Shown piece after piece: positions 16,919 to 24,125 of a stretch of DNA of 64,000 nt. The stretch is from positions 1-64,000 of the forward strand of contig CASDZV010000041.1 of the NCBI GenBank assembly GCA_949285905.1, in the 5' to 3' direction. Under the pieces are notes generated by a model. That model saw nothing but the letters and a program-made list of their open reading frames with translations. It did not search any database and was not told the origin of the DNA. Position 1 is the stretch's first letter. Each line of letters opens with the position of its first letter. A program made the translations under genes and the position numbers. This DNA is from an uncultured Spirochaetales bacterium (GTDB taxonomy: Bacteria > Spirochaetota > Spirochaetia > Sphaerochaetales > Sphaerochaetaceae).

Positions 16919-17755
16919 TCATTCAATGCCCTGTTTCACAATTTCTGCAAGGAATTCCCTGAAGCTGACAGAAACAGATTCATCGTCCTGTGTGAAGATG
17001 AGAGTTCCTGTGGTTGTATCAGCCTTACTAGCAGCTTCTATGTCAATCACATCGCCAGAAGGCAAGGTTGCTGTATAAGAAAGACCATTATTACCAAGAG
17101 CCCAAACAATAGTAATTATATCTTCCAGCTTAAGACTTATTCCGTCTTCCTCTGTCGCAATTTTAATCGAAGAAACCGTGCCATCTGCATCAGTAAGAGT
17201 TGCTATGAGGTCAGAAATCTCCAATTTGATGGACGAGACTTTGAAAGTGACAGGGAACAAAGCACCACCTTGTGTCTCTGGTGGCTCCTCACATATTCCT
17301 CGGAACGTTGCATTTCCAGAGTATCTGACAGAGCCAGCATAATTACTTCCAGCTGAATTGATCTTGTATTCATCGAATTCTATTGGGAATGAAACATCAG
17401 CTTCCATAGACACTGGAGGTATTTCTGTTTTAGATATCTTCAGCTCCAGTTCGACATCCGTTGCATTAAGGTTTTTAAATGCCTCTTCCAGCTTCTCAAA
17501 GAAATAATCATCGGAAAATCCTGCGACAAAAGGCTTAGCAAGATTCACAGCCTTCTCCGCTACTGTTTCTGGTACAGGTTCTGGTTCCGGGTCTGGTTCA
17601 GGCTCTGGATCCGGGTCCGGTTTGGGATCTGGTATTTCCGGTGATCCCTGGTCTGGGCTGACAGCACCCGATGGGGGCAACTGAACAGGAGTCTGGTTCG
17701 TGCAGGAAGTAATTACAAGGAGTATAGACAGAGCTAACAAAAATATCTTCTTCAT
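16919..17755 (-). CDS. Lipoprotein with proline-acid linker, poly-G promoter
   Basis: A 278-residue predicted lipoprotein: MKKIFLLALSILLVITSC, with the lipobox ending at Cys18. A spacer rich in P-D-P-E repeats (about residues 40-62) looks like a stalk away from the membrane. The remaining 215 residues alternate charged and hydrophobic beta-like stretches and match no family I recognise. The ATG at 17755 has GGAGG five bases upstream; the open frame further upstream is not used. Its promoter carries a nine-G tract against the -10 box, so expression is probably phase-variable. It is likely surface or periplasmic and has its own terminator. Function unknown. Confidence 0.8.
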   Translation of the reverse strand: MKKIFLLALSILLVITSCTNQTPVQLPPSGAVSPDQGSPEIPDPKPDPDPEPEPDPEPEPVPETVAEKAVNLAKPFVAGFSDDYFFEKLEEAFKNLNATDVELELKISKTEIPPVSMEADVSFPIEFDEYKINSAGSNYAGSVRYSGNATFRGICEEPPETQGGALFPVTFKVSSIKLEISDLIATLTDADGTVSSIKIATEEDGISLKLEDIITIVWALGNNGLSYTATLPSGDVIDIEAASKADTTTGTLIFTQDDESVSVSFREFLAEIVKQGIE

Positions 17756-17782: not shown

Positions 17783-17809
17783 AGTATACCCCCCCCCAGC
17801 AATTGTCAA
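17783..17809 (-). promoter_or_regulatory. Promoter with poly-G spacer (9 G), lipoprotein 1
   Basis: Minus strand: perfect -35 TTGACA (17804-17809), spacer ATTGCT plus nine G (the C run at 17789-17797), then -10 TATACT (17783-17788). The spacer is 15 bp in this sequence, two short of optimum; eleven G would give 17 bp. The tract directly abuts the -10 box. This is the layout of promoters whose strength changes by slippage in a homopolymer. Confidence 0.75.
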
Positions 17810-17878: not shown

Positions 17879-18913
17879 TCAGCGCTGTACACGCCCGGAT
17901 CCATCACCTTCAGCAAGTGCCTTGACCTCGGAAAGACGAGTAAGGTTGAAGTCTCCGCTGATTGAATGCTTGAGGCAGGATGAAGCAACTGCGAAGTTGA
18001 TTGCATACTGCTCATCTTCGAAGTGTGAAAGTGCATAGATGATACCAGCTGCGAAGGAATCTCCACCACCGACTCTGTCAACGATATCTGTGATCTCATA
18101 GTGCCTTGAGAGGTAGAATCCTGTCTTGCCGGAGAGAGCTGCTGACCATCCATTGTGATCTGCGCTCTTTGACTCACGCAGAGTGATAGCAACAACAGAT
18201 ACGTTAGGGAACTGCTCCTTGACCTTTGCTGCAAGCTCTTCATATACCTTTGTATCAAGCTCGCCCTTTGTAACATCGCTGTCTGCTTCGATGCCGAGAC
18301 ACTTCTGGATATCTTCCTCATTTGCGATAACGACATCTGCATACTTAACAAGCTCTCTCATAACTTCTGGTGCCTTCTTGCCATAGTTCCAGAGCTTCTT
18401 GCGGTAGTTGAGGTCGATGGAAACTGTTGCACCAGCATTCTTTGCAGCCTTCATTGCTTCGAGAGCACAGTCTGCAGCACCCTGGCTGATAGCCGGAGTG
18501 ATACCTGTTGTATGGAACCAGTCTGCGCCCTTCATGATTGTTTCAAAGTCAAAATCTGCCGGCTTTGCTTCTGCTACAGCAGAACCGCTGCGGTCATAAA
18601 CAACGAGAGAAGGTCTCTGATTTGCGCCTGTCTCAAGGAAATAAATTCCAAGTCTGCCGCCCTTTACCTTGTTGATAGCTGAAGTATCTACACCATACTT
18701 CATCAGTTCGCGCTCTGCAGCTTCACCAACAGCATTGTCTGGAAGTGCTGTGACAAACTGTGCCTTCTCTCCGAAAATAGAAAGAGAAACAGCAACATTA
18801 GCCTCTCCGCCACCAAATGTGGCCTCAAGGGATGGTGTCTGGAAAAGACGATACAGCTCCTGGCTTCTAAGGCGGAGCATGATTTCACCGAAAGTAACAT
18901 ATTTCTTGGACAT
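17879..18913 (-). CDS. kdgK: 2-keto-3-deoxygluconate kinase (PfkB family)
   Basis: A 344-residue PfkB-type sugar kinase. It has the N-terminal FGEIMLRL and [13 protein letters not shown] (substrate-binding Gly-rich segment), [15 protein letters not shown], and the C-terminal ATP/anion-hole motif [17 protein letters not shown] with the catalytic Asp. The YxxRSGSA-like [13 protein letters not shown] segment is typical of KDG kinases. It phosphorylates 2-keto-3-deoxygluconate to KDPG, which the divergent aldolase gene product then cleaves. The ATG at 18913 has AGGAGG six bases upstream; ten extra upstream codons are open but lack a site. Confidence 0.9.
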
Positions 18914-18968
18914 CAGAAACCTCCTATCCGATAATGTTCTCATAGGTTATTATTAATTGGATGTTGTC

Positions 18969-19083: not shown

Positions 19084-20046
19084 ATGACAAAAGAAGAGAT
19101 TTTTACCGCGTTTCATGATATCGGTCTTGTGCCGGTAGTCAAAATTGATGATGCCGAGAAGGCAGTACCTCTCGCAAAGGCCCTTATCGATGGCGGTATT
19201 CCATGTGCAGAAATCACATTCCGCACAGATGCTGCAGAAGAGGCAATCAAGAAGGTTACAAAAGCATATCCAGAGATGCTTGTTGGCGCAGGAACTGTCA
19301 TCAATCCGAAGCTTGCTGAGAAAGCAGTTGCAGCTGGTGCAAAGTTCATCGTTTCTGCTGGTTTCAACAGAGAGACTGTTGAGTGGTGTCTGTCACATAA
19401 TATCCCGGTAGTACCTGGTGTCTGCACTCCTTCCGAAATCGAACTGGGACTTTCAATGGGACTGGATGTTCTCAAGTTCTTCCCTGCTGAAGCTTCTGGC
19501 GGCGTTGGCATGCTTAAGAATTTCGCAGGTCCGTTTGCACAGGTGAAGTTCATGACAACAGGTGGCATCAACATCAACAACCTCCAGGACTATGCAAAGA
19601 CATCCAATGTTCTCGCAATCGGTGGATCCTGGATGGTCAATGCAGACCTCATCAATAACGAGAAGTGGGATGAGATTACAGCCCTCTGTGAAGATGCAAG
19701 ACTTAAGCTTCAGGGCTTCAAGCTCGTGCATGTTGGTATCAACCTTGCTGATGAAGCAGCAGCCGCAGGGGCAGCTGAGGAGTTCGCAAAGTTCGGAATG
19801 GCTATCAACAATGGCAACTCATCCATCTTCATGGACAAGGAAATCGAGCTGATGAAGAAGCCAGGTCTTGGAAAGAATGGCCATCTCGCTGTCAGATGCA
19901 ACGATATCGAGAGAGCAATCTACTTCCTCAAGGACAAGGGATTCACAGTCAACGAGGAGACAGTAAAGCGCGATGCAAAAGGCAAGATCAAGGTCTGCTA
20001 TCTCAACGAAGAGGTAGGTGGCTTTGCAGTTCATCTTGTGAAATAA
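19084..20046 (+). CDS. eda: KDPG/KHG aldolase fused to VOC-like domain
   Basis: A 320-residue protein. Residues 1 to about 212 are a class I KDPG aldolase. Its Schiff-base lysine is in GLDVLKFFPAEASGGVGMLK and its other motifs are GIPCAEITFRTDAAEEAI and LVGAGTVIN. It splits 2-keto-3-deoxy-6-phosphogluconate to pyruvate and glyceraldehyde 3-phosphate. From about residue 215 (KLVHVGINLADE) a second domain of about 105 residues follows; its HVGIN start and C-terminal GGFAVHLVK resemble the glyoxalase/VOC fold. Classic Eda is about 210 residues long, so this is a true fusion. The start has AAGGAGAG upstream. It is divergent from kdgK. Confidence 0.9.
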   Translation: MTKEEIFTAFHDIGLVPVVKIDDAEKAVPLAKALIDGGIPCAEITFRTDAAEEAIKKVTKAYPEMLVGAGTVINPKLAEKAVAAGAKFIVSAGFNRETVEWCLSHNIPVVPGVCTPSEIELGLSMGLDVLKFFPAEASGGVGMLKNFAGPFAQVKFMTTGGININNLQDYAKTSNVLAIGGSWMVNADLINNEKWDEITALCEDARLKLQGFKLVHVGINLADEAAAAGAAEEFAKFGMAINNGNSSIFMDKEIELMKKPGLGKNGHLAVRCNDIERAIYFLKDKGFTVNEETVKRDAKGKIKVCYLNEEVGGFAVHLVK

Positions 20047-20065: not shown

Positions 20066-20105
20066 AGGGCTGTAAATGAGGAGAACTCTTGCACAGCCCT
20101 TTTTC
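20066..20105 (+). terminator. Terminator of eda
   Basis: Stem AGGGCTGT (20066-20073) with ACAGCCCT (20093-20100), followed by five T. It separates eda from the second poly-G promoter. Confidence 0.85.
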
Positions 20106-20128: not shown

Positions 20129-20158
20129 TTGATTATTTGATACCGGGGGGGGTAGAAT
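20129..20158 (+). promoter_or_regulatory. Promoter with poly-G spacer (8 G), lipoprotein 2
   Basis: -35 TTGATT (20129-20134), an 18-bp spacer ending in eight G (20145-20152), then -10 TAGAAT (20153-20158). Loss of one G gives the optimal 17-bp spacer. The G run touches the -10 box exactly as in the other lipoprotein promoter at 17783-17809. Confidence 0.7.
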
Positions 20159-20177
20159 AAACACAAAGGAGCCCCGG

Positions 20178-21719
20178 ATGAGAAAATTATTTTTACTTCT
20201 TCTTTCAATCGTTGTATGTTTCTTCCTGTCTTCTTGCAGGAATGTTATAGTCAGTGATTTGCCAGCTATTGATAAACCTGTAGTACCAGAGAAACCTTCT
20301 GTGTCGGTATGGGATGGATCTCTTGCAGATACTGAAGAGCTAGTAGCAAAAATACAGAATTCAGACACTATTTCAATTAACAGCGCAGCAGAATTAGCGG
20401 CTCTTGCTGATATTGTTAATGGGACAGCTCAGAACTTGCCAGAAGGATTCAGTACGAAGTTAACAGGGAAAACAATTATTCTGGAAACCGATATTGACCT
20501 CGCAGAACTTCCTTGGACGACTATTGGACGTAATACGAAATCGATGATGGGGCAGAAAAATGGCAATCCGTTCGAAGGGGTTTTTGATGGAAATCATCAT
20601 ACGATAAAGGGACTTAACGTCACAGCAGAAAAGCATGCAGGTCTTTTCGGATATGTTCATAATGCTTCGTTCAGAAATATTACAGTGGAAGGAACATCAA
20701 CAGGAACTTCCAGCACAGCGAATGGCCTTCTTATCGGTACTGCATACTATGATATGGTGGCAGGAGAATATGCAATTGAGAACATCATGGTCAATGGCAA
20801 GGTCTCAGGAGAGGCTGCAGGTGGTGCTATCGGACTGCTATATGTAAATCCTCCGAATAGCGGAGCAATTACAGTTAATATTTCTGAAATTACTATTGAT
20901 GGTGAAATTTCTTCCCCAATAAGAGCCGGTGGCCTCGTTGAACGCATTGATATTAATAAAGAATCCGGAACCGTAAATATATCCGACATTGAATCCAATG
21001 CAACTATTACCGTAACTGGAGGATCTTACGGGAATACTGTTTCTGCTGGTGGTATTATCTGCCGAATAAACAGCTCTGGTACCATCAATATTGGAAACGA
21101 TAGTGAAAATGGCACCGCCAATATAGTGAATGGCGGAGATGTTTCCATTACATCAACAGATAAAGAAGCATTTGTTGGTGGAATTATTGGTGATATACAA
21201 ACTGAAAAGAATACAATAATTACCAATGTCGAAAACAATGGTGTTATTTCCTCATCATGCCAGGCTATTGCTGGAGGTATTGTTGGAAGAGTAGCAGAAG
21301 GAATCCTTGTCATTTCGAAAGCAATTAACGCAGGTGCCGTAACAGCTCTTGATAATTACATTGGGGGGATAGCAGGTGGAGCTTTCGATATAAATCTTAC
21401 TATTTCTGATTCAGAAAACAACGCTGCTATAAAAGGAATTCTTTCTGCAGACGCTTCTCGCTCCATGTATGTAGGAGGTATTCTTGGATTCGGGTTTGAA
21501 GTCAATTCTGAGACAATCCTTACAATGGCTGATGTAGTAAATACAGGAAAAATTTCATCAGACAATCAGTCAGATACACAAGATGCTTATGTTGGTGGTA
21601 TTGCAGGAGGAATCCTCAATGTTTCCGGTTCTCTTTCGGATTGGGAATCAATCAATGCGGAGAAACCGATTGGCAGCAATAGTAATTCAGAGGACTTTAC
21701 TATCTCTCCAATTCCGTAA
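20178..21719 (+). CDS. GLUG-repeat beta-helix lipoprotein, poly-G promoter
   Basis: A 513-residue predicted lipoprotein. The signal peptide ends LSSC at Cys20, followed by a proline-rich spacer. Residues from about 120 on are repeats of the GLUG/ZmpA type: FEGVFDGNHHTIKGLNV and AGLFGYV first, then many turns with AGG(I/L)(V/I/C) such as AGGIVGRV, VGGIIGDI and VGGIAGGI. This is expected to form a right-handed parallel beta-helix, as in surface adhesins. It is rich in N, S, T and I. AAGGAG lies six bases before the ATG. Neighbouring genes use pectin sugars, so binding of a glycan is one possibility; adhesion is another. Expression is probably phase-variable. Confidence 0.82.
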   Translation: MRKLFLLLLSIVVCFFLSSCRNVIVSDLPAIDKPVVPEKPSVSVWDGSLADTEELVAKIQNSDTISINSAAELAALADIVNGTAQNLPEGFSTKLTGKTIILETDIDLAELPWTTIGRNTKSMMGQKNGNPFEGVFDGNHHTIKGLNVTAEKHAGLFGYVHNASFRNITVEGTSTGTSSTANGLLIGTAYYDMVAGEYAIENIMVNGKVSGEAAGGAIGLLYVNPPNSGAITVNISEITIDGEISSPIRAGGLVERIDINKESGTVNISDIESNATITVTGGSYGNTVSAGGIICRINSSGTINIGNDSENGTANIVNGGDVSITSTDKEAFVGGIIGDIQTEKNTIITNVENNGVISSSCQAIAGGIVGRVAEGILVISKAINAGAVTALDNYIGGIAGGAFDINLTISDSENNAAIKGILSADASRSMYVGGILGFGFEVNSETILTMADVVNTGKISSDNQSDTQDAYVGGIAGGILNVSGSLSDWESINAEKPIGSNSNSEDFTISPIP

Positions 21720-23243: not shown

Positions 23244-24125
23244 ATGCCAAGAATAGGATACAGAGCCCATGATTTCGGCTCATTTGATTCAGCCTCCGCA
23301 CTAGGCGAGAGGATAGAAAGCATCAGGCCATCCTTCATTCAGCTCGCGCTGAATAAAGTCATCCCTTCTGCACGCCCCTGGCAGGAATGGGATGAAGAGT
23401 ATATCTCTTCCATCTCTTCCGATCTCAGGAAGCATGGTGTGACTGTAGCCATCATCGGCTGCTACATCAACCCGATCAATCCCGATAAAGAAGCCAGGAA
23501 GAAAGAGATTGAACGCTTTGAGAAGTCGCTGTCTCTCGCTTCAGCCTTTGGCTGCCCTTATGTGGGAACTGAAACAGGATCAGTTGCACCAGGTGGTGGT
23601 GGCTACTCCATCGACACATCGGCAAGAGAGAATCTTGCTATTTTCCGGGACAGTCTTTCAAGGATGCTGGAAGCTGCAGAGAAGCACGATGCGTATGTAG
23701 CAATCGAGGCTGTCGCTCGCAACCATACGATATCTACTATCGAGCGCATGGCGGACATCATTGCCTCTTTCCCTACCAGGAGACTGAAAACCATCTTCGA
23801 TCCTGTAAATCTCATCCCTTATCTGGGTATTCCAGAGAGCGATGGTGTCCCTCTTCGCATTCCTTCTGAAGAAGCTGAGCATCGTTTCATTTCCGATGTC
23901 CTTGATCTTTACAAGGACCGCCTTGTAGCTATCCATTGCAAGGATTACATCCTTTCAGAGGCGGATGGAACCAAAATCGGTGACATACCGGCTCTTACAG
24001 GCCTCTTCCGCTGGAAAGCGTTCGCAGAAGAACTGAGAAAGAGAAATATAGATGTTCCATGGCTTCTGGAGAACCACAACCCGGCAACCGTCAAGGAAAC
24101 AGCAGAAACCCTAGAAAAATTCTAA
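23244..24125 (+). CDS. Sugar phosphate isomerase/epimerase (AP endonuclease 2 fold)
   Basis: A 293-residue TIM-barrel protein of the xylose isomerase-like family. Metal-binding segments include YVGTETGSV, YVAIEAVARNHTI, TIFDPVNLIPYLG, VAIHCKDYIL and PWLLENHNP, with Glu/Asp/His in the usual strand ends. Members isomerise or epimerise keto sugars and uronates. Divergence from the polygalacturonase gene suggests work on a uronate or its product (inference). No ribosome binding site is present; TATTCT ends six bases before the ATG, so the message may be leaderless. Confidence 0.8.
   Translation: MPRIGYRAHDFGSFDSASALGERIESIRPSFIQLALNKVIPSARPWQEWDEEYISSISSDLRKHGVTVAIIGCYINPINPDKEARKKEIERFEKSLSLASAFGCPYVGTETGSVAPGGGGYSIDTSARENLAIFRDSLSRMLEAAEKHDAYVAIEAVARNHTISTIERMADIIASFPTRRLKTIFDPVNLIPYLGIPESDGVPLRIPSEEAEHRFISDVLDLYKDRLVAIHCKDYILSEADGTKIGDIPALTGLFRWKAFAEELRKRNIDVPWLLENHNPATVKETAETLEKF

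Follow-up and report, generated by a model that had tools for sequence, protein, structure and literature searches.

A poly-G tract in a lipoprotein promoter of an uncultured gut spirochaete is very probably one of a genome-wide set of slippage-prone contingency elements

Results

A poly-G promoter upstream of a lipoprotein gene

The window, that is, the whole 64-kb stretch of DNA that was analysed, contains a kdgK-like sugar kinase gene and an aldolase gene, eda, with a lipoprotein gene and a poly-G promoter on either side (Table 1). A search with eda places the genome near Candidatus Ornithospirochaeta (Sphaerochaetaceae). Upstream of the 513-aa lipoprotein gene the original prediction had described TTGATT, an 18-bp spacer ending in eight G, and TAGAAT, and these are present exactly as stated; the layout, TTGATT-10 nt-G8-TAGAAT, puts the poly-G between recognisable -35 and -10 boxes, and the ATG of the lipoprotein lies 19 nt beyond TAGAAT. 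The promoter can also be aligned with others of the form TTGACAAATCGATACC-Gn-TAGGCT at further places in the genome. Since the intrinsic terminator of eda lies upstream and separates eda from the poly-G promoter, the promoter is the lipoprotein gene's own. The matching layout that had been claimed for the sister promoter is likewise there, with TTGACA, a 15-bp spacer ending in G9 and TATACT. The distances of 18 and 15 bp between the boxes of the two promoters both fall within the range of 15-20 bp.

Table 1. Features of the kdgK/eda region, in window coordinates
Feature	Coordinates	Strand	Basis or remark
278-aa lipoprotein behind the sister promoter	16919..17755	-	signal-peptide rule
Sister promoter, TTGACA-15 bp (ending in G9)-TATACT	17783..17809	-	tract at 17789-17797
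PfkB-family sugar kinase, kdgK-like	17879..18943	-	conserved neighbour, outside the switch
KDPG/KHG aldolase (eda)	19084..20046	+	conserved neighbour, outside the switch
Intrinsic terminator of eda	20067..20104	+	stem 20067-20073/20093-20099, T-run from 20100
-35 hexamer TTGATT	20129..20134	+	direct reading; 4/6 match to TTGACA
18-bp spacer, ATTTGATACC + G8	20135..20152	+	final 8 bp are G8
Poly-G tract of 8 G, putative slippage site	20145..20152	+	direct reading
-10 hexamer TAGAAT	20153..20158	+	abuts G8
Ribosome-binding site AAAGGAG	20165..20171 (about)	+	direct reading
513-aa lipoprotein, probably GLUG-type right-handed beta-helix, lipobox LSSC	20178..21719	+	signal-peptide rule; AlphaFold; Foldseek

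The downstream gene probably encodes a beta-helix lipoprotein

No Pfam family was found for the 513-aa lipoprotein at an E value of 0.01, and a structure model was therefore used. The AlphaFold model, built on a 10-sequence alignment, is an extended run of beta-strands with a mean pLDDT of 83. When it was compared with the PDB by Foldseek, the sole strong match was 3n6z (E 8.7e-6), a protein from Bacteroides whose annotation is putative IgA1 protease. This match is partial, with a TM score of about 0.34-0.47 (about 0.34 over the query), and the matches that follow it are the beta-helix parts of IgA1 proteases. Neither the model nor the matches indicate a protease domain, or such an activity, in the lipoprotein. 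The fold is probably a right-handed beta-helix of the GLUG type; together, the signal peptide, the model and the match to 3n6z uphold the earlier description of a beta-helix lipoprotein, and the signal peptide and modelled helix predict a surface or envelope protein.

Among 48 genomes of the genus there is no close orthologue of this protein or of the 278-aa lipoprotein. The 513-aa protein does have homologues, at about 30-40% identity, several of which are tract-bearing themselves: the tract lies in the promoter in genomes G040 and G045 and at the start of the coding sequence in G041 (twice), G044 and G064, as it does, with G7, on contig C64 of the window's own genome.

The two tracts of the window are not a dedicated pair

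As had been noted, the 64 kb contain no runs of at least eight G or C other than the tracts at 17789-17797 and 20145-20152, and both fall within lipoprotein promoters; of the three lipoprotein genes that a simple signal-peptide rule recognises in the window, two carry the runs. Composition models lead one to expect 0.1-0.4 such runs per window, so that a count of two is only mildly surprising; the same cannot be said of their placement.

From this arrangement it had been proposed that the two loci form a small contingency system dedicated to the sugar-acid pathway of kdgK and eda. The tracts do flank kdgK/eda on both sides and have no counterpart in the window, as such a system would suggest. 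However, the genome holds 28 tracts, most of them at other lipoprotein genes, and the terminator and promoter set the 513-aa gene apart from eda. Further, the order of kdgK, eda, a permease-type gene, a glycosidase family 28 gene and the gene at 23244 is kept in several related genomes, with about 62-96% protein identity among relatives, and in the related genomes examined both lipoprotein genes are absent from this site, where some relatives carry unrelated insertions instead. The tie to sugar-acid metabolism is therefore positional only. A two-locus system was rejected on the tract count and on this synteny, and we regard it as highly improbable.

Two minor features of the neighbourhood were seen. 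The gaps beside kdgK/eda contain other, unrelated inserted ORFs in some relatives (L059, L061), so that insertions appear to be frequent at this site. The eda product (19084-20046) has a C-terminal extension, conserved across the genus, that is weakly glyoxalase-like at a level below the Pfam cut-off.

Poly-G tracts lie mostly at lipoprotein genes

The search of the whole genome for G runs that the original prediction had proposed bore out the non-random placement at lipoprotein genes but not the number of loci, which is 28 distinct G/C runs of at least eight instead of two. When the context of each was read manually, about 23 of the 28 were found at lipoprotein genes. About ten lie in -35/-10 spacers of the TTGA(C/T)-Gn-TAnnn type: seven of these precede a verified lipoprotein, two are cut by contig ends but keep much of the same leader, and one is cut just after the tract. 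About twelve are intragenic, within or a little beyond the signal-peptide part of a lipoprotein gene, where one base more or less moves the frame; nine are G and three C on the coding strand, and as assembled only one of the nine G-strand tracts is in frame, the other eight being out. One further run is found 84 nt before a lipoprotein. The remaining five are associated with a membrane-anchored protein with a proline/glutamate-rich linker, a polysaccharide pyruvyl transferase, a type I restriction specificity subunit, the leader of a PapD-like chaperone and a 176-aa ORF, which the run directly precedes.

The same association is seen among relatives. Automatic classification of the tracts in seven genomes of the genus put 99 of 162 at lipoproteins, compared to 5 of 126 control G5-6 runs from the same DNA. 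Lipoproteins make up 60 of the 76 genes adjoining a tract and 17 of 231 other genes (p 4e-33), where the background genes come from DNA around the tracts and the lipoprotein calls from our own simple signal-peptide rule, which is sometimes wrong (we struck out one antisense case manually). The tracts are many and are enriched at one functional class of gene, as in a genome-wide repertoire of contingency loci. The promoter form is also widespread: across 139 genomes of the family the pattern TTGACA-N4-14-G6-TAnnnT has more than 150 sites, compared to 2 for the reversed pattern, with the matches falling chiefly in the window's genus (34 of 48 genomes by our count) and one sister genus, and in a sample of the phylum the poly-G promoter pattern occurs in 84 of 393 genomes and 34 of 168 genera.

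Two of the tracts outside lipoprotein genes have features of their own. The G8 at G000:C72:37517 (L053) is inside the type I restriction specificity (HsdS) gene, whose frame runs on into a further domain of the specificity type only at a different tract length, like known phase-variable HsdS systems. The G11 at G000:C63:82780 (L050), directly before the ATG of the 176-aa ORF, occupies the position of a ribosome site and has a palindrome-like TTAGCATTTGCTAA upstream.

A TA dinucleotide follows most tracts

TA stands directly after 93% of the promoter tracts, as a -10 box requires. It also follows 61 of the 83 tracts outside such promoters (73%, an upper estimate since this group may hold undetected promoters), compared to 7% of G4 and 4% of G5 runs. 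These figures bear upon whether the window tracts could simply be chance G runs in a genome of 44% GC, or artefacts of assembly. As a count, 28 runs is not extreme, Markov models built on the window predicting 3-16 per genome from composition, but the placement is strongly non-random and the pattern recurs in dozens of independent assemblies. A chance origin was rejected on the TA signature together with the lipoprotein association in the seven genomes, and we regard it as highly improbable.

That TA might simply supply a stop codon to the OFF frame was considered but does not fit: at non-promoter tracts TA is followed equally often by T and by A, and the coding tracts have their ON frame in all three phases relative to TA, so that the protein does not explain it. 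GGGGGGGGTA is more frequent than its reversed control in this genus and across many family-f3 genomes; this is not so in f8, another spirochaete family. It is conceivable, if rather unlikely, that the poly-G tracts of the lineage are one DNA-level module, Gn then TA, that a dedicated process creates or maintains whether the site is a promoter, signal-peptide codons, a leader or a restriction specificity gene. If real, the signature would suggest a mechanism particular to the lineage by which tracts are made or kept.

Otherwise identical promoters differ in tract length

Tract lengths, taken as one assembled length per locus from one assembly per species, differ between paralogous promoters that are otherwise identical. 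In genome G040 two promoters that are the same over 45 upstream and 92 downstream bases carry G8 and G9, and three that share at least 99 identical downstream bases carry G8, G9 and G11; in the window's genome two promoter copies with 41 identical downstream bases carry G8 and G11. The promoters have more in common than the tract, which is preceded by (T/A)ACC and followed by TAGnnT, and their spacers cluster at 19 bp (g1) or 16 bp (g2).

The shared motifs, and a clustering that could mean one preferred geometry, are what would be expected if the poly-G were a fixed protein-binding site, or a structural spacer, of a regulated class of promoter (served, for example, by a lineage-specific activator) in which no switching by slippage takes place. 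Against such a fixed element stand the different tract lengths within identical flanks, the occurrence of the same tracts inside coding sequences (with the single in-frame case among nine), and the fact that relatives of the same protein bear tracts at different positions. We consider a fixed element improbable. The tract at 20145-20152 is instead, very probably, a slippage-prone contingency element, one of the genome-wide poly-G set that lies mostly on lipoprotein genes and has two devices, one in promoter spacers and the other a frame switch close to the signal peptide. Contingency-type switching, as first proposed, is thus supported by the architecture and the non-random placement, though not as a system of two genes.

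For the promoter device, slippage during replication would add or remove G's between the -35 and -10 boxes; the change in spacing would alter the binding of RNA polymerase, and transcription of the lipoprotein would in turn be switched or graded between sister cells. Such slippage in living populations, and its effect on transcription, are what we infer from the architecture. Against a switch at 20145 is the weakness of the -35 box, which matches TTGACA at four of six positions. Slippage rates are usually modest at short tracts, and G8 is at the short end.

Discussion

A poly-G tract in a promoter spacer is a known mechanism, to which the element at 20129 adds another case. In Treponema pallidum the promoter of tp0126, which encodes an OmpW homologue, has a poly-G between -35 and -10 with a transcription optimum at 17 bp (PMC7864442). 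Both are spirochaete promoters with the same arrangement, upstream of a gene for a surface protein or, in the present case, a predicted one, and control by spacer length has been shown for tp0126. The two differ in that the product of tp0126 is an outer-membrane OmpW homologue and not a beta-helix lipoprotein, and in that T. pallidum is a pathogen of another family in which function was tested, while here it is read from sequence. The tprE/G/J/L promoters of T. pallidum have poly-G of varying length (PMC7864442) and are similar as spirochaete surface-gene promoters. The classical precedent is porA of Neisseria meningitidis, where poly-G in the -35/-10 spacer alters the spacing (PMC7864442); that is a single porin locus in an unrelated phylum, in contrast to the lipoprotein-wide set described here.

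It had been predicted that loss of a single G would bring the promoter to its optimum. The arithmetic, from 18 to 17 bp, agrees with the optimum of tp0126 (PMC7864442), by which the 18-bp state would be one base too long and the 15-bp state of the sister promoter two too short. However, the commonest assembled spacer in the genus is 19 bp (25 of 52 lipoprotein promoters); set against a 17-bp rule, this means either that most of the promoters would be weak in the majority of cells or that the optimum differs.

The nearest likeness to the set as a whole is Campylobacter, with its genome-wide G/C-tract contingency loci, both intragenic and intergenic (PMC8355987). Here, in contrast, most targets are lipoproteins, frame switching is placed mostly within or beside the signal peptide, and tracts in promoter spacers are as common as those in coding sequence. 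No report of phase variation in Sphaerochaeta or this family was found in the open-access literature that was searched. It is the scale and the host that matter: an uncultured lineage of gut spirochaetes appears to hold many lipoproteins under stochastic poly-G control. If these are exposed at the surface, their variation may have a role in escape from immunity or phage.

Other tracts were noted in this genome and its relatives. One lies 72-84 nt before a PapD-like chaperone gene (G000:C72:12460, which is L052, and L110, L140, L172, L176 and L234), at the orthologous place in six species and with 9, 9, 9, 8, 10 and 11 G; in some of the species the leader has complementary TAAGCGCTG/CAGCGTTTA and CATGTC/GACATG segments, which could form a structure around the tract and the ribosome site. 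Four tracts near contig ends in two species (L123, L136, L148, L202) share a module ending in CTACCTTCAGGGGGTT(A/G)GTTCA(A/G)(T/C), then G9-TA, of which one copy is just before a lipoprotein. No Rfam match to a known RNA element was found at these repeated contig-end tracts; the module is possibly a repeated or recombining cassette. Finally, in a sister species, two neighbouring genes of phage baseplate/tail type (L245 and L246, at G040:C59:24611 and 25290) each have a G9 near the N-terminus, and in the assembly neither is in frame; the one that was tested matches Pfam Gp10_C, and the arrangement suggests phase-variable phage tail proteins.
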